This document shows positions 8,993 through 42,226 of a DNA stretch of 42,226 nucleotides, piece after piece. This DNA comes from a virus. Positions within the stretch are counted from its first letter, which is position 1, and every line of letters begins with the position of its first letter. The stretch covers positions 1 to 42,226 of the IMG/VR virus record IMGVR_UViG_3300020152_000040. One strand, given 5' to 3'. A model generated the notes under the pieces. That model ran no database searches and had not been told where the DNA came from. It saw only the letters and a list, made by a program, of their open reading frames with translations. The translations under genes and the position numbers were made by a program.

Positions 8993-9067
8993 TGCGGCTG
9001 TGGAGGACTGGTACCTCGCCGGCGTTCACGGCGCCGGAGATAGCGGGTTCGACTCCCGCCGCCGCAA
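8993..9067 (+). tRNA. tRNA-like gene, unusual arms (CAC anticodon on the best fold)
   Basis: The T arm is canonical: stem GCGGG/CCCGC (9043-9047/9055-9059) with loop TTCGACT. D arm GAGG/CCTC (9003-9006/9014-9017) with loop ACTGGTA, T at position 8 (9001), and variable loop AGATA. The acceptor stem pairs 8993-8998 with 9061-9066 plus G9000-C9060, leaving T8999 bulged. The anticodon arm is CCGGC/GCCGG plus an extra G-C pair, giving either a 6-bp stem with loop TTCACGG (anticodon CAC, Val) or a 5-bp stem with a 9-nt loop (possible TCA). 3' CCA is not encoded (ACCT). Real but degenerate, or a tRNA-like structure. Confidence 0.55.
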
Positions 9068-9097
9068 CCTTACTGTTCACGCCGCCGAGGTTTCATC

Positions 9098-9574
9098 GTG
9101 GCCGCCTATCTCACCGTCGACGAGTTCAAGCTCCGTACGATCATGCCTGCAACGCAGGTGGATCGAATCGAGGCGACCTCGCCGGGGTGGCTCGCGGCGA
9201 ACCTTGAGAGCTCGTCGCGGTGGGCGGACATGTACCTCGCCAAGCGCTACCGCGTCCCGTTCCCCGCCCCGTATCCGGAGGCCGTCAAGTCGTGGGTGGC
9301 GCGCATGGTGACGCAACGCGCGTATCTGCAACATGGCATCCCCGCGAACGATCAACAGCTCGCGCTCGTCGGCGCCGACAGTGAGAAGGCCGAGAACGAG
9401 ATCAAGGCGGCGGCGGACGGACAGCTTTCGCTGATCGACCTCCCCGACGCCGGCGGACAGTCGCTCGTCCAGTTCGGCGGAACGCGCGTCTACTCCGAGT
9501 CCTCGCCGTACGTCGCCGGCGACGTCCAGCGCTCGACGGGACGGCGCGAGGACGGGTGGAGGCGCGGCACATGA
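9098..9574 (+). CDS. Head-tail joining protein, Mu gp36/DUF1320-like
   Basis: 158 aa. Begins AAYLTVDEFKLRTIMP and continues with ADMYLAKRYRVPFPAPYPEA and WVARMVTQRAYLQHG, the pattern of DUF1320 (Mu gp36) connector proteins that sit between portal and tail terminator. GTG start with GAGG upstream; position right after the capsid gene agrees. Confidence 0.85.
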   Translation: MAAYLTVDEFKLRTIMPATQVDRIEATSPGWLAANLESSSRWADMYLAKRYRVPFPAPYPEAVKSWVARMVTQRAYLQHGIPANDQQLALVGADSEKAENEIKAAADGQLSLIDLPDAGGQSLVQFGGTRVYSESSPYVAGDVQRSTGRREDGWRRGT

Positions 9575-22672: not shown

Positions 22673-23098
22673 ATGGAGCGACTCACAGAAGCGGATCTCG
22701 AGGGCAACGTGGATCGGCTGGTGACCGAGCTGATAGAGGGCTCTCCCGTCGCCGACGCGGACATGCCCGAACGCATCGACGCCGAAGGGAACATCACGAC
22801 GGACGAGAGCGGCATCTTCGTCGACCACTGCGATCGTCAGGTGGTCTCGTACTACCAGGATCGTCAAGGCCGGTGGAAGCCGACCGCGCTCAAGGTCGGC
22901 GACGACGTCATCTGCGCGGGGATCCCCCTGCGTGTCGTCGCGCCTGCGCGCGGACGCGGCTATTTCAGCGGCTACTACAGTCCATGGTTCGGCGAGACCC
23001 TCGTACCCATCGAAGCCCGGTACGTGACCGAGCGTGCACCGCTCGATCCGAACGAGACGCCGATGCCCATCATTCCCGACGAGGAGGTGACGCCGTGA
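22673..23098 (+). CDS. Hypothetical protein downstream of the fibre
   Basis: 141 aa, acidic, with DRQVVSYYQDRQGRWKPTAL and RGRGYFSGYYSPWFGE, aromatic-rich. AGGAGTGAG Shine-Dalgarno decides for ATG 22673 over the in-frame ATG at 22643. Position suggests a fibre chaperone or accessory protein; no family recognised. Confidence 0.75.
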   Translation: MERLTEADLEGNVDRLVTELIEGSPVADADMPERIDAEGNITTDESGIFVDHCDRQVVSYYQDRQGRWKPTALKVGDDVICAGIPLRVVAPARGRGYFSGYYSPWFGETLVPIEARYVTERAPLDPNETPMPIIPDEEVTP

Positions 23099-24189: not shown

Positions 24190-24724
24190 GACACCGACGC
24201 CGCCGATCGGCCCCGTGCCGGTGGTGATCCCGGCGTGGATCCCCGTCGCGCTCGGTGAGATCGGCGTGCTCGAGGACATCCGGCCGGGGCTCTCGACGGC
24301 GCGGATCGAGGACTACCACGCCGTCACCGGCGCCGGCCGCGCGCCGGACGACGTCCCGTGGTGCGCCTCGTTCGTCTCGTGGTGTCTCGAGCAGTGCGGC
24401 ATCCGCTCGACGCGCTCGAAAACGGCGCGCTCCTACGCCGCGTGGGGCGTCGCCTGCGTGCGCTCGAGCAAGGTGGCGCCGCCGCGGCCGCGGTGGACGA
24501 TCGGCGCGGTGACGGTGTTCGGTCCGAGGGACGCGGACGCCGGCGGGACGGGGCACGTCGCGTTCTTGCTCGGCGCGAGCGGGCCGGACGTGTGGGTGCT
24601 CGGCGGGAACCAGGGTAACCGCGTGAGCATCGCCCAACGCAAGGCCGCCGACGTGATCGCGGTGCGGTGGCCCGAGTCGGTGGCCATCCCTACCAGCATC
24701 CGGCCGCCACCGGTGGCGCGGTAG
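24170..24724 (+). CDS. Endolysin, TIGR02594/CHAP-like amidase
   Basis: 184 aa. Recognisable TIGR02594 signature: VALGEIGVLEDIRPGLST, EDYHAVTGAGRAPDDVPWCA, then H129 in GTGHVAFLL and VLGGNQGN (143-150). Cys-His-Asn triad is likely C65, H129 and N147. Cleaves peptidoglycan peptide bonds; no signal peptide, so it needs the holin. GTG start lies inside the previous gene and follows GAAGGGGG. Confidence 0.85.
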   Translation: MATLPGKTPTPPIGPVPVVIPAWIPVALGEIGVLEDIRPGLSTARIEDYHAVTGAGRAPDDVPWCASFVSWCLEQCGIRSTRSKTARSYAAWGVACVRSSKVAPPRPRWTIGAVTVFGPRDADAGGTGHVAFLLGASGPDVWVLGGNQGNRVSIAQRKAADVIAVRWPESVAIPTSIRPPPVAR

Positions 24725-24779
24725 ACACGGCGACTTATCACCTTGTAGACTTGTCACCATGTCGACAAGTCACGCCGTC
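24724..24779 (+). promoter_or_regulatory. 8-bp phased repeat array over a start codon
   Basis: Octamers GACACGGC-GACTTATC-ACCTTGTA-GACTTGTC-ACCATGTC-GACAAGTC-ACGCCGTC. Two direct GACTTRTC copies lie 16 bp apart (24732, 24748) and an inverted GACAAGTC follows exactly 16 bp later (24764). The last pair forms a perfect inverted repeat with an 8-nt centre holding the ATG of the next gene (24759). Same spacing and sequence as upstream of parA (29552). Confidence 0.65.
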
Positions 24780-24953
24780 GTCCGGATCCACCTCGACGCG
24801 CCGGAGGGCCTCCCCCGCGCGCTCGTCACGCTGAACACGCTCGACGCCACGGGGCCGAGCACCGTCCTTGCCGGCCTCGGCGTCGCCGCCACGGCGCCGG
24901 GAGCGGTGCGCGCGGCCGTCCGCGCTGCTCGAGCGCGCCGGAGCCGGACGTGA
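24759..24953 (+). CDS. Small hypothetical protein under octamer control
   Basis: 64 aa, start SHAVVRIHLDAPEGLPRALV and an alanine/arginine-rich end. Its start codon is the centre of the GACTTGTC/GACAAGTC inverted repeat, so a bound repressor would cover the start. Overlaps the following ORF by GTGA. Not a membrane protein; no family recognised. Confidence 0.55.
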   Translation: MSTSHAVVRIHLDAPEGLPRALVTLNTLDATGPSTVLAGLGVAATAPGAVRAAVRAARARRSRT

Positions 24954-25311: not shown

Positions 25312-25345
25312 ACGGCCCCACTACTCACGTCTTAGGGGCCGTTTC
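25312..25345 (+). terminator. Probable rho-independent terminator of the late operon
   Basis: ACGGCCCC (25312-25319) pairs with GGGGCCGT (25335-25342) around a 15-nt loop and is followed by TTTCT. It ends at the stop codon of the convergent minus-strand gene. The 233-base gap 25112-25344 otherwise holds only this hairpin, the 25194 inverted repeat and a CCGCGGCGCCGCGG palindrome (25283-25296). Confidence 0.55.
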
Positions 25346-26559
25346 TACGTGCCGAACCACGCGACGAGCGCGAGGACGGCGGCGTACTCCGGGATCTCCG
25401 CGCGCACCTCCGGCGGGAGCAGCGCGTAACCGCGAGCTCGAGCCACCGGATCGGGCGGAGGGGCCGTCGGCGGGGGGCCGCGCGCCTCCCGTCTGTCCCG
25501 CTCGATCCGCCGCTGCTCGATCTCGCGGAGGTGCTCGAGCATCCGCGCATGCACCGGATCGGGAGGTTCCTCCGGCTCGAGCCGTGCGCGCACGATCGCG
25601 ATCGCCTCGGCGAGCTCGTCGGCGCGGTCGGTGTCGCCGCCGAGCCGGACGGCCGTGAGCCGCTGCTCGAGCTGCTCGAGTCGCTCGGCGAGCTCGTCCC
25701 GCGACGCGTCGGCGGGGCCGGTGAGCTGCTCGAGCTCGGCGGCCCTCGTCGCGGCCCTGTCCGCCCCCCGGTCGCACAGGGTGTCTCCGGCGCACGCGGC
25801 GCGGAACAGGTGGCGCCACAGCTTCCCGGGGACGTCGGCCGAGCGCTCGGCGAGCGTCCGCGCCGCGAGCAGGGCCTCTGTGGGCCTCTGCAAGCTCGCC
25901 GGCTCCCGGAGCAGGCGCTCTATCCGGTCGGCCGTTCCGAGGCCGTGGCGGCCGTCCAGGGCGGCGCGGAGCTCCCCCTCGATGCGCACCGCCGCGGGGC
26001 GGAGGATCGCGGGGTGCTCGAGCTCGAGCCGCACGGCGCGTCGACGCTCGCGAGCTCTCGAACCAGCCGACGATCTCGCGGGGGCACGCGTGCGCACGCG
26101 CGCGGGATCTGCGTTTGCCTTGTGAGATCTGCTCGCGGATCGCGTCGGCGGGGTGGCGCTCGGATCTCGCCTACGGCCTCGATCGCGAAGATCTACGCGA
26201 TCAGCGGGATCCGTAGAGATCAGCAGATCAGCCGGCACCCCCCGGCTTAACTGTGACGCGGATGGCTCGATCCACCGACGTGTCGCGAGCTGGCTCCGGC
26301 CATACCAGACCTGGATCTCGACGAGGCGGCGGCGGTAGCTCTTTCGGATCACCGCGTGGGCGCGCTCGATCTGCCGCTCGTCGACGTCGAACAGCTCGGC
26401 CAGCTCGGCCACCGACAGCTCACAGGGGCGGTTCGCCGAGTGCGCCGCGAGGTAGGCGCGGAGGCGCGAGGCCAGCGTCCACCCCGCGGGGTGGCTGCTC
26501 CTAAGAGGTAGCGGTACAAAACCTTGCGCCGCGCCGTGTTCGTGATAGTCGTTCGTCAC
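25345..26559 (-). CDS. Winged-helix protein, possible replication initiator or regulator
   Basis: 404 aa, minus strand, GTG start. Residues 25-90 read as a winged helix (LASRLRAYLAAHSANRPCEL, VAELAELFDVDERQIERAHA). A long arginine/alanine-rich linker (about 115-170), a helical middle (EGELRAALDGRHGLGTADRI) and a C-terminal coiled coil (ELAERLEQLEQRLTAVRLGG, HARMLEHLREIEQRRIERDR) follow. Plasmid Rep and phage O-like proteins start with such wHTH domains. It lies beside a 330-base repeat-rich gap and near ParA, which makes a Rep role plausible but unproven. Confidence 0.6.
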   Translation of the reverse strand: MTNDYHEHGAAQGFVPLPLRSSHPAGWTLASRLRAYLAAHSANRPCELSVAELAELFDVDERQIERAHAVIRKSYRRRLVEIQVWYGRSQLATRRWIEPSASQLSRGVPADLLISTDPADRVDLRDRGRRRDPSATPPTRSASRSHKANADPARVRTRAPARSSAGSRARERRRAVRLELEHPAILRPAAVRIEGELRAALDGRHGLGTADRIERLLREPASLQRPTEALLAARTLAERSADVPGKLWRHLFRAACAGDTLCDRGADRAATRAAELEQLTGPADASRDELAERLEQLEQRLTAVRLGGDTDRADELAEAIAIVRARLEPEEPPDPVHARMLEHLREIEQRRIERDRREARGPPPTAPPPDPVARARGYALLPPEVRAEIPEYAAVLALVAWFGT

Positions 26560-27966: not shown

Positions 27967-28470
27967 TCAGTGCACCCCGCTCGGAGGCGGAGCGCCGCCG
28001 AGGCTGCGTCGCATGAGATCCTTGAGGGACGCCGTCGCGAGTCGGACGCAGTCGATGCACAGGACCATCTGCAGTCCTTTCGGAGCGCCGCCGCCGAACA
28101 CTTGCAGCTTTACGATCCCGCCGGGGACGGCGTCGTCCGCGCCGCGGTGCGCGCACAGGCTCCGCAACGTCTCGCCGGAGTCCGGCGCGAACGTCCGCCC
28201 CGGCTCGAGCTTGCACAGGACGCCGAGCACCACCGGCCCCCACGGCGCCGCAAGGATGCACTCGAGCATACCGCCGAGCGTGAGCGGCCGGTGCTCGAGC
28301 CTGAGACGGTCGGCGACGCATTCGACGAACGCGGAGCACGCCGCCGTCTGTTGCACCGCGCTCGCGTCGCGGTCGGACAGGTGCTCGGTGCGCCGTTCGA
28401 GCAGCTCGAGCAGATCGTCCGCGAGTGCCATCGACTGTGCGGTGAGCTCGTCGGACCCGATCTCGCTCAC
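27967..28470 (-). CDS. Hypothetical protein, parA-operon member
   Basis: 167 aa. Starts VSEIGSDELTAQSMALADDL, then helices with ERRTEHLSDRDASAVQQTAA, a middle LEHRPLTLGGMLECILAAPW and a C-terminal LKDLMRRSL. Several cysteines, no clear motif. GTG overlaps the stop of the RHH gene (GTGA), so it is the third gene of the parA-RHH unit. Confidence 0.65.
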   Translation of the reverse strand: MSEIGSDELTAQSMALADDLLELLERRTEHLSDRDASAVQQTAACSAFVECVADRLRLEHRPLTLGGMLECILAAPWGPVVLGVLCKLEPGRTFAPDSGETLRSLCAHRGADDAVPGGIVKLQVFGGGAPKGLQMVLCIDCVRLATASLKDLMRRSLGGAPPPSGVH

Positions 28471-28829
28471 GACGCCGACTCCAGATCGATCGCCCACTGC
28501 TCGGACAGGGCCTCGGCGGCGGCGTCCGAGAGCGAGACGCGGCCGCGGCGCGCGCGTGCGTCGAGCTCGTCGGCGATGGGGAGCGGGAGGTAGAGCGTGG
28601 TCCGCCGCTTCACCGTGGCCCCCTTGCGCTCGCCGTTCACGAGCCGGCCTTTCATCTCGACGATCCCGCGGCCCTGTTTCGCCGTCTCCTTGTCGGCGGT
28701 GGGGTCGCGCTCGCGCTCGCGTGCTCGCCTGTCGATCTCGCGTTGCTGCTCGCGCGTGAGCTCGGCCGGTTTGGCGGTGTCGGTCCGGCGCGCGCGGCGC
28801 GGGGTGGCGGTGGGCTTCTTACTTGGCAT
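28467..28829 (-). CDS. RHH DNA-binding partner of ParA (ParG/omega-like)
   Basis: 120 aa. A basic, unstructured N-terminal arm (1-70) with many Arg/Lys is followed by an RHH domain (about 75-115: KRRTTLYLPLPIADELDARA, SLSDAAAEALSEQW). Small proteins with a flexible basic arm and RHH next to a ParA ATPase are the partner class of ParG and omega, which bind arrays of short direct/inverted repeats and stimulate the ATPase. The ATG overlaps the end of parA by 11 bases. Confidence 0.75.
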   Translation of the reverse strand: MPSKKPTATPRRARRTDTAKPAELTREQQREIDRRARERERDPTADKETAKQGRGIVEMKGRLVNGERKGATVKRRTTLYLPLPIADELDARARRGRVSLSDAAAEALSEQWAIDLESAS

Positions 28830-29535
28830 GCGGTGCGGCCTTTCGTGGTGGGTTGCGGACGAGCTCGAGCGCGGCCTTGCGGCGCGGGAGGCGGAGTAGC
28901 CGCTCGAGCTCGTCGACGAGCGCGCGGACCTCGTCGGCGGCCTCGCTCGTCGGTTCATACGTCGTCGGCCCCTTCCCGGCGCCGGGAGCGTACTGGTAGC
29001 CGTAGAGGAACGAGAGCTCGGTGCGCATCACCGGGATCTCGAGCGACTCGAGAGCCTCGCGCGCTTGTCGGCCGAGGACGGTCCGCTTGTCGCGACGGTT
29101 GAGCAGGATCACCGCCTCCGGCGCGTCACCTCGAACGGCCTGGACGTCGCGGACCTGATCGACGCTCCCTTGCATCGCCCAGATCTCGATCGGCGACGGG
29201 GACACACCGAGGATCGCGAGGTCGGCGAGCGCGAGCGCGTGGGCGACGCGACGGCCGTTCCTGCCGGGACAGTCGATCAGCGTGAGATCGTATTTCTCGG
29301 CCTCGGCCGGGAGCTGTGTTCGGAGCGCGTTCCCCATGCCCACGACGCGCGGCACGTCGACGCCTTTCTCGTCGGCGACGTCGGCCCACGTGAGCGCGCT
29401 CCGCTGTTCCTCTATGTCGGCGTCGACGATCAAGGTCGAGATCCCGCGGCGGTGCGTCTCGACGGCGATCGCGATCGTGTTCGTGGACTTGGCCGCGCCG
29501 CCTTTTTGGCCGACCATCGCGACGATCTTTCCCAT
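28819..29535 (-). CDS. parA: ParA-family partition ATPase
   Basis: 238 aa from ATG 29535. Deviant Walker A QKGGAAKST (10-18) with signature K11 and P-loop K16, Walker A' VDADIE (38-43), Walker B LTLIDCPG (84-91). The usual glycine before the P-loop lysine is alanine (GGAAKST), a small oddity. No N-terminal HTH, as in the ParF/delta class. An 8-bp phased array lies 17 bases upstream of the start (29552-29599), the expected place for a centromere-operator. Position between replication-like and structural genes suggests plasmid-like inheritance of the prophage. Confidence 0.9.
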   Translation of the reverse strand: MGKIVAMVGQKGGAAKSTNTIAIAVETHRRGISTLIVDADIEEQRSALTWADVADEKGVDVPRVVGMGNALRTQLPAEAEKYDLTLIDCPGRNGRRVAHALALADLAILGVSPSPIEIWAMQGSVDQVRDVQAVRGDAPEAVILLNRRDKRTVLGRQAREALESLEIPVMRTELSFLYGYQYAPGAGKGPTTYEPTSEAADEVRALVDELERLLRLPRRKAALELVRNPPRKAAPHAK

Positions 29536-29551
29536 GGCCGCGGAGCGTAGT

Positions 29552-29599
29552 GACAAGGCGACTTGTCGTCAAGGTGACTTGTCGACGTGTCTACATGGG
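29552..29599. promoter_or_regulatory. 8-bp phased repeat array upstream of parA (candidate centromere/operator)
   Basis: Six contiguous octamers: GACAAGGC-GACTTGTC-GTCAAGGT-GACTTGTC-GACGTGTC-TACATGGG. The two exact GACTTGTC copies start 16 bp apart (29560, 29576). RHH partition proteins such as omega bind contiguous 7-bp units in direct and inverted orientation; here the unit is 8 bp. Located between parA and the end of the upstream minus gene. Confidence 0.65.
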
Positions 29600-30664: not shown

Positions 30665-31015
30665 TCAGATCACGTCCGGTAGCTCGTCGACAGCGCCGGC
30701 CTCGTCGGCGAGCTCCGCAAGTTCGGAGTCGAGCGCCTCGAGGGCCTCGCCGTCGCCGGAGCGGAGCGCGTGCGCACGCTTTCCCCACAGGCGACGGCGC
30801 GGATCGCGACGGCGGAACCTGCCAGCGCAGCCGTTGCAGGCGGATCCCGCCGGGAGGTTCCGAACGTACGTCACCGAGTGGACGTGCTCGGCGCCGCACC
30901 GGCACTGCCACAGCCACCGCTCGCGGCCGCCTGTCGCCGTGGTGGCGTCGACGCGGCGGAGGGCCGTCCAGGCGCCGAGCTTGTCACCGGGGTTCACTTG
31001 AACACGTGTCGACAT
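30665..31015 (-). CDS. Zinc-binding protein with phage 'GDKxG' domain
   Basis: 116 aa. GDKLGAWTALRRVD, then WLWQCRCGAEH and CNGC: the same small zinc-binding layout as in the gene at 2124-2489. The C-terminal half is acidic and helical (ALDSELAELADEAGAVDELP). ATG 31015 was chosen for its GGAGA ribosome site and because it lies in a conserved octamer-type start region. Confidence 0.7.
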   Translation of the reverse strand: MSTRVQVNPGDKLGAWTALRRVDATTATGGRERWLWQCRCGAEHVHSVTYVRNLPAGSACNGCAGRFRRRDPRRRLWGKRAHALRSGDGEALEALDSELAELADEAGAVDELPDVI

Positions 31016-31037
31016 GGGGACTTGTCTCCGAGTCACC
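30979..31037. promoter_or_regulatory. Octamer-family motif over a minus-strand start
   Basis: Plus-strand octamers CACTTGAA-CACGTGTC-GACATGGG-GACTTGTC-TCCGAGTC. On the minus strand this reads GGAGACAAGTCCCCATGTCG, so the motif overlaps both Shine-Dalgarno and ATG of the gene starting at 31015, inside the C-terminal coding part of the exonuclease gene. Same phase as at 34411-34458. Confidence 0.5.
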
Positions 31038-32385: not shown

Positions 32386-32996
32386 GGTGCACCGTCGAGG
32401 ACGGCGGCGTGGTGGTGGTCGGCGAGGGCCTCGGCGAGGCGTTGCTCGAGCTCGCGGACGCGCTCGCGGAGCTGGCCGCACTCGGACTCAAGGTCGCGGA
32501 CGACGGCGGCGCGGCGTAGATGTTGGGAACAGTAGGCCATGCCTTTCTTTGCCAGCGAATGACATGGCTTGCCAAGCGTCGAGAGCGCCGAGCAGCGCGG
32601 CCTGTCGACTCGATGCCATATGCACTTGTCACCATGTCGCCGAACGACGCGCTTACAGGGATAGCCGAGCGCGTCGACGGTGGCGCACTCGATCCGCTCC
32701 GGCGGTTCGCCGCGCGGCCTGTCGCGATGGACGGTGCAGTAGTCCGAACCGGGAACCGTCGTGTTGTGGCACCGCGAGCCGGTGGCATTCAGGGACGCGC
32801 ACCGCGGCCGCGGCGGGAAGGGGACAGGGGCCGCGACGGGGACGTTCTCGCGCGGTGGCTCGCGGCGGTGGAGGTAGCACCGGCCTCGGAAGGCGGGGCG
32901 GCCGATCGCGTCGCACGGGGCGCCGCTCGCGCATGGGGCGCCGCACCGCGGGACGGCGTCGGGGTCGCGGCGGATGCGTCGCGCGCCGCTTCTCAT
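32382..32996 (-). CDS. Tandem CCCH zinc-motif protein with coiled coil
   Basis: 204 aa. Four repeats of C-x(8-9)-C-x(7-11)-C-x2-H are visible: CDAIGRPAFRGRCYLH (with the preceding CGAPC), CASLNATGSRC..YCTVH, CATVDALGYPC..CIWH and CSALSTLGKPC..YCSQH. A C-terminal coiled coil follows (ESECGQLRERVRELEQRLAE). Related motifs occur in the gene at 33505-34002. ATG 32996 chosen because the in-frame sequence upstream is arginine-rich shadow. It could bind nucleic acid or protein. Single CCCH units are common in phages; four in a row is unusual. Confidence 0.75.
   Translation of the reverse strand: MRSGARRIRRDPDAVPRCGAPCASGAPCDAIGRPAFRGRCYLHRREPPRENVPVAAPVPFPPRPRCASLNATGSRCHNTTVPGSDYCTVHRDRPRGEPPERIECATVDALGYPCKRVVRRHGDKCIWHRVDRPRCSALSTLGKPCHSLAKKGMAYCSQHLRRAAVVRDLESECGQLRERVRELEQRLAEALADHHHAAVLDGAP
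32623..32638 (+). repeat. In-coding copy of the octamer motif CACTTGTC-ACCATGTC
   Basis: The 16 bases 32624-32639 (ACTTGTCACCATGTCG) are identical to 24749-24764. Here the motif lies inside the coding part of a CCCH repeat on the minus strand, where it encodes RHGDK, so it does not obviously serve a start codon. Confidence 0.5.
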
Positions 32997-34148: not shown

Positions 34149-34439
34149 TCACGTCCCGGCTCCGTTCGCCGGGAGCGACGCGACGGCGAGCGTCCCGTCC
34201 GCGCTCGAGCCGTGGGCGGTGGTCGGCTCGCGCTCGCCGAGGGCCGTGTTCAGGTTCGCGAGCTCGGCGCGTGCGGTGAGCAGCTCGCCGCGAACCTGCT
34301 CGGTCTCCACGTGGAGGCGCTCGAGCCGCGCGCCGAGCTTGTCGACGTTGCGCTGTGCTCGGTCGCGGAGCTCGGTGAGCGTGTTCGAGACGCTCGCGGG
34401 ACGACGTGGTTTCTTGTCGCTTTGTTCACTTTTAGACAT
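34149..34439 (-). CDS. Coiled-coil hypothetical protein
   Basis: 96 aa. Starts SKSEQSDKKPRRPASVSNTL, then a heptad-like helix (ELRDRAQRNVDKLGARLERL, VETEQVRGELLTARAELANL) and a low-complexity tail. The ATG is preceded by GGAGACAAATCACC, an octamer-family start motif. It may oligomerise with the coiled-coil zinc-motif proteins downstream. Confidence 0.65.
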   Translation of the reverse strand: MSKSEQSDKKPRRPASVSNTLTELRDRAQRNVDKLGARLERLHVETEQVRGELLTARAELANLNTALGEREPTTAHGSSADGTLAVASLPANGAGT

Positions 34440-34458
34440 GGTGATTTGTCTCCATTTC
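34411..34458. promoter_or_regulatory. Octamer-family motif over a minus-strand start
   Basis: Plus-strand octamers TTCTTGTC-GCTTTGTT-CACTTTTA-GACATGGT-GATTTGTC-TCCATTTC. On the minus strand it reads GGAGACAAATCACCATGTC, closely matching the array at 30979. It spans the end of the nuclease gene and the start codon at 34439. Confidence 0.5.
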
Positions 34459-35916: not shown

Positions 35917-36152
35917 TGACTCTGGACGAGTGGCTCGAGCGGGAAGGGTACGGGGCCGCGCACCGGCTCACTTTCGCGGCCTGTGTCTCGGCGCCGACCG
36001 TCCAGCGTGCGCGCGAGGGCCGGTGCTCGCTCGCGTCGGCGCTCAAGATCAGCGCGGCGACGGAATACGCCGTCGAGGTCGCGAGCATGACGGCCGACGA
36101 GGTTCCGGACGGCGTCGCGGTGCCGCGTAAGCGCGTGCGGGGTCGCACGTGA
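35916..36152 (+). CDS. Cro/CI-like HTH regulator
   Basis: 78 aa. TLDEWLEREGYGAAHRLTFA ... VSAPTVQRAREGRCSLASAL reads as an XRE-type HTH with a divergent recognition helix. The GTGA junction couples it to a second HTH gene. Its start lies in the 19-bp repeat, consistent with autoregulation. Either repressor or antirepressor of the switch. Confidence 0.7.
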   Translation: MTLDEWLEREGYGAAHRLTFAACVSAPTVQRAREGRCSLASALKISAATEYAVEVASMTADEVPDGVAVPRKRVRGRT

Positions 36153-36421
36153 GTTTGCCGGCGGTGGCGCGTCGACAGGCGCTCGCGCTGGCCCTCGGAA
36201 CGGCCATTCGCCACCGGCGAACCGAGCTCGGGATGAGTGAGACGCTGCTCGCGCACGTGATCGAGACGCGTCCCGGCCTCGTCGCGCGCGTCGAGAGCGG
36301 CCGCCACGCGCTCTCGCTCGATCTGCTGTTCCGCTACGCCGAGGGCCTCGGAACGACGCCGTCCGCGCTGCTCGCGCTGGCCGAGCAGCTCGCCGGGGCG
36401 TCCGCTTCACTTACGGTGTGA
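36149..36421 (+). CDS. XRE-family HTH regulator, probable lysogeny repressor or Cro
   Basis: 90 aa, GTG start. ALGTAIRHRRTELGMSETLL, AHVIETRPGLVARVESGRHA and LSLDLLFRYAEGLGTTPSAL make a full five-helix XRE domain with no extra domain. Such small proteins serve as Cro or short repressors. Lies next to a divergent promoter region with repeats, so the switch function is well supported by context. A TCCGCGA-CGTC-TCGCGGA inverted repeat (36430-36447) follows. Confidence 0.8.
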   Translation: MSLPAVARRQALALALGTAIRHRRTELGMSETLLAHVIETRPGLVARVESGRHALSLDLLFRYAEGLGTTPSALLALAEQLAGASASLTV

Positions 36422-38734: not shown

Positions 38735-39421
38735 ATGGGAACCGATCACCGATCGCCTGTTCGGCGCGTGGTGGTGGGCCTCGATCAGGCCGTGCGGACC
38801 GGGTGGGGAATCGCGCCGGAGCATGGGCGCGTCCTGCGTCACGGCGTCGCGACCACGCACGCTCACCGGCTCGCGGTGCTCGAGCTGGCCTTGCAGTTCG
38901 CCGGCGGCGATCGGCGCGCGCTCTACGTGTGTCTCGAGAAGCATGACCACATGCCCGTCACGCGCTTGACGCGGTTCGACCACGACACGCAACGCGCCGG
39001 ACCGCGACAGGCGGCGCCGGAGCGAAGCAACGCGACGTTGATCGGGATGGGCAAGGCCGCCGGGAGATGGCTCGAGCTGTGCGACCTGTTCGGCGTACCG
39101 CTCTCGAACCGGTTCGAGGTGCGGCCCGCAACGTGGCGATCGATCGTGCACGGGACGACGCGCGGACAGACCGAGGTGATCAAGCGCGCGGCCATGGTGT
39201 TCGCATCCGGCGCCGTCGGGGAGGACGTCACCGATCCCGATCAGGCCGAGGGGGTGTGCATCACCGTGTGGGCCTCGATCCACGGCCTCGCGATGGTCGA
39301 CGGCGAACGCGCTCGAGCGCGGATGGACAGGCGGATTGAGAAAGAGCTCGCGCGGCAGGGGACACTCGCACTCGACGCGCTCGACGCCGAGGTGGCGAAC
39401 GACAACGGGAGGCGGAAGTAG
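38735..39421 (+). CDS. RuvC-like Holliday junction resolvase
   Basis: 228 aa. RNase H-fold pattern: VVVGLDQAVRTGWG with D17, YVCLEKH with E68, and DPDQAEGVCI with D169, followed by WASIHGL. Resolves branched DNA before packaging. C-terminus VANDNGRRK matches the end of the following methylase. GGGGGG upstream of the ATG. Confidence 0.85.
   Translation: MGTDHRSPVRRVVVGLDQAVRTGWGIAPEHGRVLRHGVATTHAHRLAVLELALQFAGGDRRALYVCLEKHDHMPVTRLTRFDHDTQRAGPRQAAPERSNATLIGMGKAAGRWLELCDLFGVPLSNRFEVRPATWRSIVHGTTRGQTEVIKRAAMVFASGAVGEDVTDPDQAEGVCITVWASIHGLAMVDGERARARMDRRIEKELARQGTLALDALDAEVANDNGRRK
39391..39415 (+). repeat. 25-bp direct repeat at a gene junction, copy 1
   Basis: These 25 bases are identical to 40197-40221. 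Each copy encodes VANDNGRR at the end of a gene and contains the GGGAGG ribosome site of the next gene. A third partial copy (15 bases) lies at 40173-40187. Confidence 0.85.
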
Positions 39422-40227
39422 TGCGCTATCTCGGTGGTAAGCCTCGGCTCGCAAAGCATCTCGCGGCGGCCATCGCGCCGAGGGGACGGTGGTGGGATCC
39501 GTTCTGTGGCGGCCTGTCGGTGTCTGTTCAGCTCGCGAAGTTTGGGCCGGGGCTCGTTTCGGACATCCATCCCGCGCTAATCGCGCTCTATCGCGCGGTG
39601 CGCGAGGGGTGGGAGCCGCCGGCGTCGCTCTCGCGTGAGGAGTGGGGCGCGGCGCGAGCGTTGCCGGACTCGGATCCGCGTAAGGCGTTCGCGGGGTTCG
39701 GCTGCTCGTTCGGGGGGAAGTGGTTCGGCGGCTACGCGGCGGAGTGCGGCGAGCGAGTCATGGAAAAGGGTCCGGCGCGGTGGCTCGGTGCCTGTTCGAT
39801 TGACCAGGCTCGAGCGACGAGGCGGGGGCTATTGCGCGACGTCGCCGCGCTCGAGCGGTGCGAGCTCCGGCGCTGCTCATTCTTCGATGTGGCGCCGCGG
39901 CGTGGGCTGTTCGAGGCGATCTACTGTGATCCGCCTTATCGCGGCGTGACGGCTTACGCGCTGCTCGAGCCGTTCGATCACGATCGGTTCTGGGCGCGGT
40001 GCGCGGAGTGGGCGGCCGTCGGCGCGCGCGTGTTCGTGAGCGAGTATGCGTGTCCGCTCGCCGGCGTGGACGTCGCGCTCGAGCGGCGGCACCGGGATCG
40101 CTTGCGGCGCGCGGACGGGGGGCAGACGCTCAAGATCGAGCGGCTCTATCGCATTGGTGCGGACGTCGAGCCGGCGAACGACAACGGACGCGCGCCGGTG
40201 GCGAACGACAACGGGAGGCGGCGGTGA
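39421..40227 (+). CDS. dam: D12-class N6-adenine DNA methyltransferase
   Basis: 268 aa, GTG start overlapping the stop before (TAGTG). YLGGKPRLAKHLAA, motif I WWDPFCGGLS (25-34), motif IV CDPPYRG with DPPY at 170-173. Dam/DpnM-type enzyme, likely protecting phage DNA from restriction or regulating replication. The C-terminus carries two ANDNGR units (ANDNGRAPVANDNGRRR). Confidence 0.9.
   Translation: MRYLGGKPRLAKHLAAAIAPRGRWWDPFCGGLSVSVQLAKFGPGLVSDIHPALIALYRAVREGWEPPASLSREEWGAARALPDSDPRKAFAGFGCSFGGKWFGGYAAECGERVMEKGPARWLGACSIDQARATRRGLLRDVAALERCELRRCSFFDVAPRRGLFEAIYCDPPYRGVTAYALLEPFDHDRFWARCAEWAAVGARVFVSEYACPLAGVDVALERRHRDRLRRADGGQTLKIERLYRIGADVEPANDNGRAPVANDNGRRR
40197..40221 (+). repeat. 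25-bp direct repeat at a gene junction, copy 2
   Basis: Identical to 39391-39415; lies at the end of the adenine methylase gene and provides GGGAGG for the cytosine methylase start. Confidence 0.85.
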
Positions 40228-41024
40228 TGATCACGATCGGTTCGCTGTTCTCGGGCATCGGCGGCCTTGAGCTCGGCCTCGAACGGGCGGGGCTGGGGCC
40301 TGTGCTTTGGCAAGTCGAGAAGGATGCTCGGTGTCGCGAGGTGCTCGCGAAGCACTGGCCGGGGGTGGAGCAGCATGAGGACGTGTGCACCGTCGACGCG
40401 CGCAAGCTCGCGGCCGTCGATCTCATTTGTGGCGGGTTCCCCTGCCAAGATCTCTCAAGCGCGGGGTCGCGAGCTGGCATCACTGGTCCTCGTAGCGGCC
40501 TGTGGAACGAGTTCGCTCGAATCGTTGCGGTCTGCCGTCCGCGGTTCGTCGTCGTCGAGAACATCGGCGGCGTCGCGAAAGCTTGGGTTGATCGCGTCCG
40601 GCGAGATCTGGGACAGCTCGGCTATCCGACGTTACCGATCCCGCTTAGCGCGCGCGATCTCGGCGCTCCCCATCGACGCTCACGCGTTTTCATCGTCGGG
40701 GCTACTGCCGACACCAACGGCCGCGGACAACATGCTCAGCGCGAGCATGCAGAAGTGGCCGGCGCACCGTTCTCTCTGGGCGACGCCATGCTCCACAGAC
40801 GATCATGGTCCGAAAGGCCAGGCGTCCAAGGGTGGACGGAATCTGCCTCGCGAGGCGGGTGGGCATCTGAACCCGCGGTGGGTCGAGTGGTTGATGGGGC
40901 TACCGGCGGACTGGACGGCCGTCGACGCCGAACCCGTATCCGCCAACTCGGGAACGCCGTCGTGCCGCAGTGCGCGGAAGTCGTCGGCCACGTCATTCGA
41001 CAACTCGCCGAGGAAGCGGCGTAA
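40227..41024 (+). CDS. dcm: C5-cytosine DNA methyltransferase
   Basis: 265 aa. Motif I FSGIGGLELG, motif IV GGFPCQDLS with nucleophile C73, motif VI ENIGG, motif VIII HRRSRVF, motif X RIRQLGNAVVPQ. All core motifs are in order; the target recognition part between VIII and X is short, so this is a compact enzyme. Follows Dam by TGATG overlap. Probably protects against host restriction. Confidence 0.92.
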   Translation: MITIGSLFSGIGGLELGLERAGLGPVLWQVEKDARCREVLAKHWPGVEQHEDVCTVDARKLAAVDLICGGFPCQDLSSAGSRAGITGPRSGLWNEFARIVAVCRPRFVVVENIGGVAKAWVDRVRRDLGQLGYPTLPIPLSARDLGAPHRRSRVFIVGATADTNGRGQHAQREHAEVAGAPFSLGDAMLHRRSWSERPGVQGWTESASRGGWASEPAVGRVVDGATGGLDGRRRRTRIRQLGNAVVPQCAEVVGHVIRQLAEEAA

Positions 41025-41066
41025 GGGTTCGCGCCGATCCTCGGCGCTACGAAAGGGATAGCAACC

Positions 41067-42142: not shown

Positions 42143-42210
42143 TCGGCCCCGGGGGTCTACAGTGCAGGGGGTTCCAAGGCCGGGGGGCGTCGCGCGCGTA
42201 GTGCGGGAGC

Positions 42211-42226
42211 AGTCGCCGTTTTAGGA
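42211..42226 (+). repeat. Terminal 16-bp direct repeat, right copy
   Basis: Identical to 25-40. See the left copy. Confidence 0.8.

Follow-up and report, generated by a model that had tools for sequence, protein, structure and literature searches.

Dispersed palindromic octamer arrays accompany a probable type Ib partition cassette in an uncultured contractile-tailed phage

The DNA analyzed here (hereafter the window) is a 42,226-nucleotide stretch of viral origin, covering positions 1 to 42,226 of record IMGVR_UViG_3300020152_000040. On its minus strand lies a gene for a 238-aa ParA-type ATPase (28819-29535, ATG at 29535), whose 3′ end is overlapped by 11 bp by a downstream frame on the same strand (28467-28829) encoding a parB-like RHH protein of 120 aa with a basic N-terminal arm and a C-terminal strand-helix-helix. 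A first-pass annotation had described these two genes and, at 29552-29599, a block of six contiguous octamers, all of which are present; the Walker A motif (QKGGAAKST) and the basic N-terminus that it had attributed to the two proteins were likewise borne out by the translated frames.

The Walker A motif of ParA is of the deviant kind (KGGAAKST at residues 11-18), and the protein carries no N-terminal DNA-binding domain. Matches were obtained to Pfam AAA_31 (E = 6e-13), to the PHROG family of ParA-like partition proteins (4e-31), and to NCBIfam ParA_partition (6.5e-45, under that model's strict cut-off), with a ParA (5u1g) and ParF (4dzz) as the closest solved structures. The RHH protein matched Pfam RHH_1 at residues 76-103 with an E-value of 0.002, slightly below the Pfam cut-off. 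Its AF2 model, built from two input sequences, was poor overall and reached moderate confidence only in a strand (80-82) and two helices (83-96 and 100-118), and a structure search with this model returned mainly RHH proteins (CopG, Arc, MatP, CdbA), none of them significant. The cassette nevertheless has the proportions of type Ib: ParA falls within the size range of 192-308 aa (PMC3235114), the partner within that of 46-131 aa, repeats lie beside the par genes, and the predicted secondary structure of the RHH protein agrees with a small DNA-binding partner of this type. Its N-terminal arm has M, KKPT, and R positions that are invariant in four phages (introduced below), and the strand before the helices is variable; by likeness to ParG (PMC7308502), the arm may activate ParA. 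A 90-aa ORF beyond the array was considered as a third gene, parC, and was rejected as it is unmatched in the other phages with parA.

The array at 29552-29599, third along the window and putatively both par operator and centromere, starts 17 bp upstream of the parA start codon and reads GACAAGGC GACTTGTC GTCAAGGT GACTTGTC GACGTGTC TACATGGG. Each octamer is near-palindromic (GAC-WW-GTC), a property that the earlier annotation had overlooked. With a symmetric-octamer score that uses no seed, this array ranked second in the 42 kb (z ~11), and we therefore do not consider it a chance occurrence. Periods 5-7 and 9-12 were also tested in the window and gave nothing comparable to period 8, while no array was found there directly downstream of the RHH gene. 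A sigma-70 promoter scan near the array gave no hit, such a scan being uninformative at the window's G+C.

In addition, a strand-symmetric octamer profile was derived from 29552-29599 alone and used to scan the window for contiguous runs, with 100 shuffled windows as the control. Five further phased arrays were recovered, with scores of about 27-48 compared to a shuffle maximum of 22.9, which rules out the single-array picture of the first-pass annotation: the array that it reported is one of about six, each of five or more units and none with an assigned strand. Each end of the late (packaging/structural) block is marked by an array that overlaps a start codon, namely that of a small HTH-like ORF (1026) for the array at the head (996-1043, score 26.8) and that of ORF 24759-24953 for the array at the end (24724-24771, 48.1). 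The array at 30995-31034 (32.7) overlaps a DnaQ-like exonuclease gene at its 3′ end and also takes in the minus-strand start codon, at 31014-31016, of a small Cys-containing ORF, the one at 34403-34458 (38.7) covers the start codon of ORF 34149-34439 (minus strand), and the weakest, at 32599-32638 (27.7), has two strong and three degenerate octamers. The unseeded score gave its top five places in the 42 kb to positions 24724, 29552, 34411, 996, and 30991, and the top three arrays exceeded all shuffles.

Single-sequence searches of viral contigs with ParA and with the RHH protein gave no match, and a DNA pattern scan for two copies of GACTTGTC 16 bp apart returned 10 contigs, a strong array being present in none of them. 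Relatives were gathered via the major capsid protein; the full comparison covered 11 phage records, the window among them, and some of the 11 are fragments. Both parA and the RHH gene occur in four of the 11, namely in the window, IMGVR_UViG_3300043496_000162 (G001), IMGVR_UViG_3300047092_000058 (G009), and IMGVR_UViG_3300046747_000131 (G006), which form one clade in the tree. The two genes always adjoin, and the window's ParA is ~47-50% identical to its three counterparts. By the unseeded score, two to five arrays stood above every shuffle in each of these four phages, compared to none in any of the seven relatives lacking parA, although the absence of arrays outside the clade may represent a single event. 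Among periods 5-12 only period 8 stood out, and an array is found just upstream of parA in all four. A small viral contig (IMGVR_UViG_3300046789_000062, 1-3500) also encodes a ParA (34%) followed by an RHH-like gene; in four places it has candidate arrays built on a GACGTC-like word, weaker (z ~6.5-6.8) than those of the main set.

Within each of the four genomes a single octamer word is common to all arrays, and this word differs between genomes (GACTTGTC in the window, TAGGTGTC/TACACCTA in G001, AGTGCACT in G009, and CACTAGTG/CACCGGTG in G006). In cross-scans, the sister phages G009 and G006 had profiles that detected each other's arrays; between the window and G001 detection was partial, and across the two pairs there was hardly any, so that word divergence roughly agrees with the phage tree. 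At the level of the sequences, such a pattern would arise if all arrays of a genome were read by one protein that diverges between phages. That protein could in principle be another clade-specific regulator, such as a predicted winged-helix protein (25345-26559) or an HTH protein (36149-36421), in which case the array at parA would be coincidental; further genes are indeed confined to the clade, and an HTH regulator is present. We regard this as very unlikely, given that the array lies upstream of parA in four of four phages and that contiguous octamers at an 8-bp pitch match what is bound by the ParB proteins of pMF1 and RedRock. With four genomes, each having its own word at several sites, the clade offers a natural data set on how an RHH ParB and the specificity of its sites change together.

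Some array positions are also shared. Once circular permutation is allowed for, G001 is collinear with the window. The late block is headed by an array in the window, in G001 (28306-28353), and, weaker, in G009 (22869-22908), and the arrays at its end lie in comparable places (G001, 9174-9221; G009, 871-918). This bracketing of the late block in three phages, together with the overlap of the arrays at 996, 24724, 30995, and 34403 with ORF starts, would suit a system in which the arrays serve chiefly as operators for a phage-wide repressor, the RHH protein, with partition secondary or absent. On pSM19035, several promoters are overlain by sites for the omega protein (PMC9499535), which has been termed a global regulator (PMC3235114). 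Such an arrangement is nonetheless unlikely here: the ORF starts are the calls of a simple heuristic, and a pure repressor needs neither a ParA ATPase, which always accompanies the RHH gene, nor the mutual exclusion of the cassette and an integrase described below. A combined role is possible, though less likely than not, in which an RHH ParB would read the dispersed arrays both as centromeres and as operators over gene starts where the late block begins and ends, and would thereby tie plasmid maintenance to the lysis-lysogeny decision. If the arrays do regulate genes as well, these phages would show partition and gene control combined.

With regard to lifestyle, no match to the tyrosine integrase, serine recombinase, or protelomerase families was found in the window, G001, or G002. 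A tyrosine integrase was detected in six of the seven relatives without parA (one match being below the family cut-off) and in none of the four with it, so that no phage has both, while a serine recombinase was absent from every relative searched. This exclusion supports, rather than proves, a plasmid-like prophage, as it may stem from one event, the phages with parA being one clade. A linear plasmid with a protelomerase, as in VP882, was rejected for want of any telomere-resolvase match. Two of the phages with parA (G001 and G009) have exact 127-bp end repeats and are circular, and the window, whose ends carry an imperfect 40-bp direct repeat (1-40 vs. 42187-42226, 33/40 identical, including 16 exact bases), is for this reason likely to be close to a complete genome, circular or permuted. 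The protein at 25345-26559 (minus strand, 404 aa, winged helix predicted at the N-terminus) is present in all four phages with parA and in none of the seven without; a search with its predicted winged-helix structure gave no significant match, and it might be a replication initiator or regulator. Only distant matches came out of a helicase scan, sequenced plasmids yielded no close relative, and ParA had a single distant match in a scan of a genome collection. Elsewhere in the window, a tRNA-Val (cac) gene (8993-9069, plus strand) immediately follows the major capsid gene, and DNA methyltransferase-like frames occupy 39421-41061 on the plus strand (MethyltransfD12 at 39421-40227, PHROG methyltransferase at 40267-41061), possibly as one split or frameshifted gene.

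The first-pass annotation had read the locus as a partition cassette that lets a prophage persist as a plasmid. This reading gains support from the family assignment of ParA, its RHH partner, the confinement of arrays to relatives with parA, the lack of an integrase next to its presence in related phages, and the circular relatives. We consider it likely that the cassette is a type Ib ParABS serving to maintain a phage-plasmid and that the RHH protein is its ParB, which suggests that the phage is passed on as a plasmid rather than by chromosomal insertion. By this model, the ParA ATPase would bind the host nucleoid, and ParB would bind the contiguous palindromic octamers of the roughly six dispersed arrays, probably as one dimer per octamer. 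The arrays would act as centromeres that stimulate ParA, prophage copies would thereby be moved apart before division, and the array before parA would double as an autoregulatory operator. Alternatively, the phage might be strictly lytic and the cassette mere cargo or a relic in it, since these phages are uncultured and have no proven immunity repressor, but this is very unlikely, as the intact frames, the conserved N-terminal arm, and the co-changed words in four lineages point to selection.

Several known partition systems share parts of this layout. TP228 ParFGH resembles it in having ParF (4dzz), which is among the closest solved structures, and an RHH partner, whose flexible tail bears an arginine finger-like motif (PMC7308502), but its sites are degenerate tetramer boxes with AT-rich spacers instead of palindromic octamers. 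In the delta-omega system of pSM19035 an RHH ParB is likewise combined with parS sites, six in number, at which contiguous repeats overlap promoters, and ParA activation needs at least four contiguous repeats (PMC9499535); the unit there is the 7-bp non-palindromic WATCACW, whereas only period 8 is seen here. The closest annotated ParA (44%) is that of the putative par locus of the Sandaracinus amylolyticus plasmid pSa001, which also has an 8/16-bp array upstream of parA, although this array is a single one of ~600 bp compared to the several short ones of the phage. At pSa001 2118-2862, this array is for the most part a 16-bp tandem repeat (ACCAAGCT CACGAGCT), with 75 octamers in one run.

The first-pass annotation had taken the 8-bp unit as a novelty, a claim that does not hold in view of pMF1 and RedRock. 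In plasmid pMF1 of Myxococcus fulvus, ParB binds six scattered sites that share a self-complementary 8-bp motif (PMC3235114). Its parCAB system matches the phage in the octamer phasing of this motif (AGATGTCT) and in the dispersal of the sites, and its ParA is 39% identical to that of the phage over 84%; in pMF1, however, a third gene, parC, directly precedes parA, a place held here by an array, with no conserved parC. The parS of RedRock is composed of 8-bp repeats recognised by ParB (PMC7157519). RedRock and LadyBird, extrachromosomal Cluster A mycobacteriophages, are similar to the present phages in their phage-borne ParA, small ParB (Arc-like in their case), contiguous 8-bp arrays, and absence of an integrase (PMC7157519), and the LadyBird word, GACTAGTC-like, is similar to that of the window. 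As a positive control, the octamer score recovered the two arrays flanking the LadyBird parAB as well as the ItA and ItB sites of pMF1. The mycobacteriophage arrays flank parAB on both sides (parS-L and parS-R, some with an additional one), unlike the approximately six arrays of the window, which are spread genome-wide without such flanking; the present contractile-tailed phages are unrelated to these mycobacteriophages. Neither the 8-bp unit nor the dispersed sites are new, pSM19035 being a further example of dispersal besides pMF1, and the kit is of a known kind; what appears to be new is its presence in this uncultured phage lineage. The RedRock-type substitution of parAB for an integrase seems to recur here, the two being mutually exclusive among relatives, and some members of these uncultured contractile-tailed phages thus seem to use parABS where their relatives use an integrase, as is the case in mycobacteriophages.
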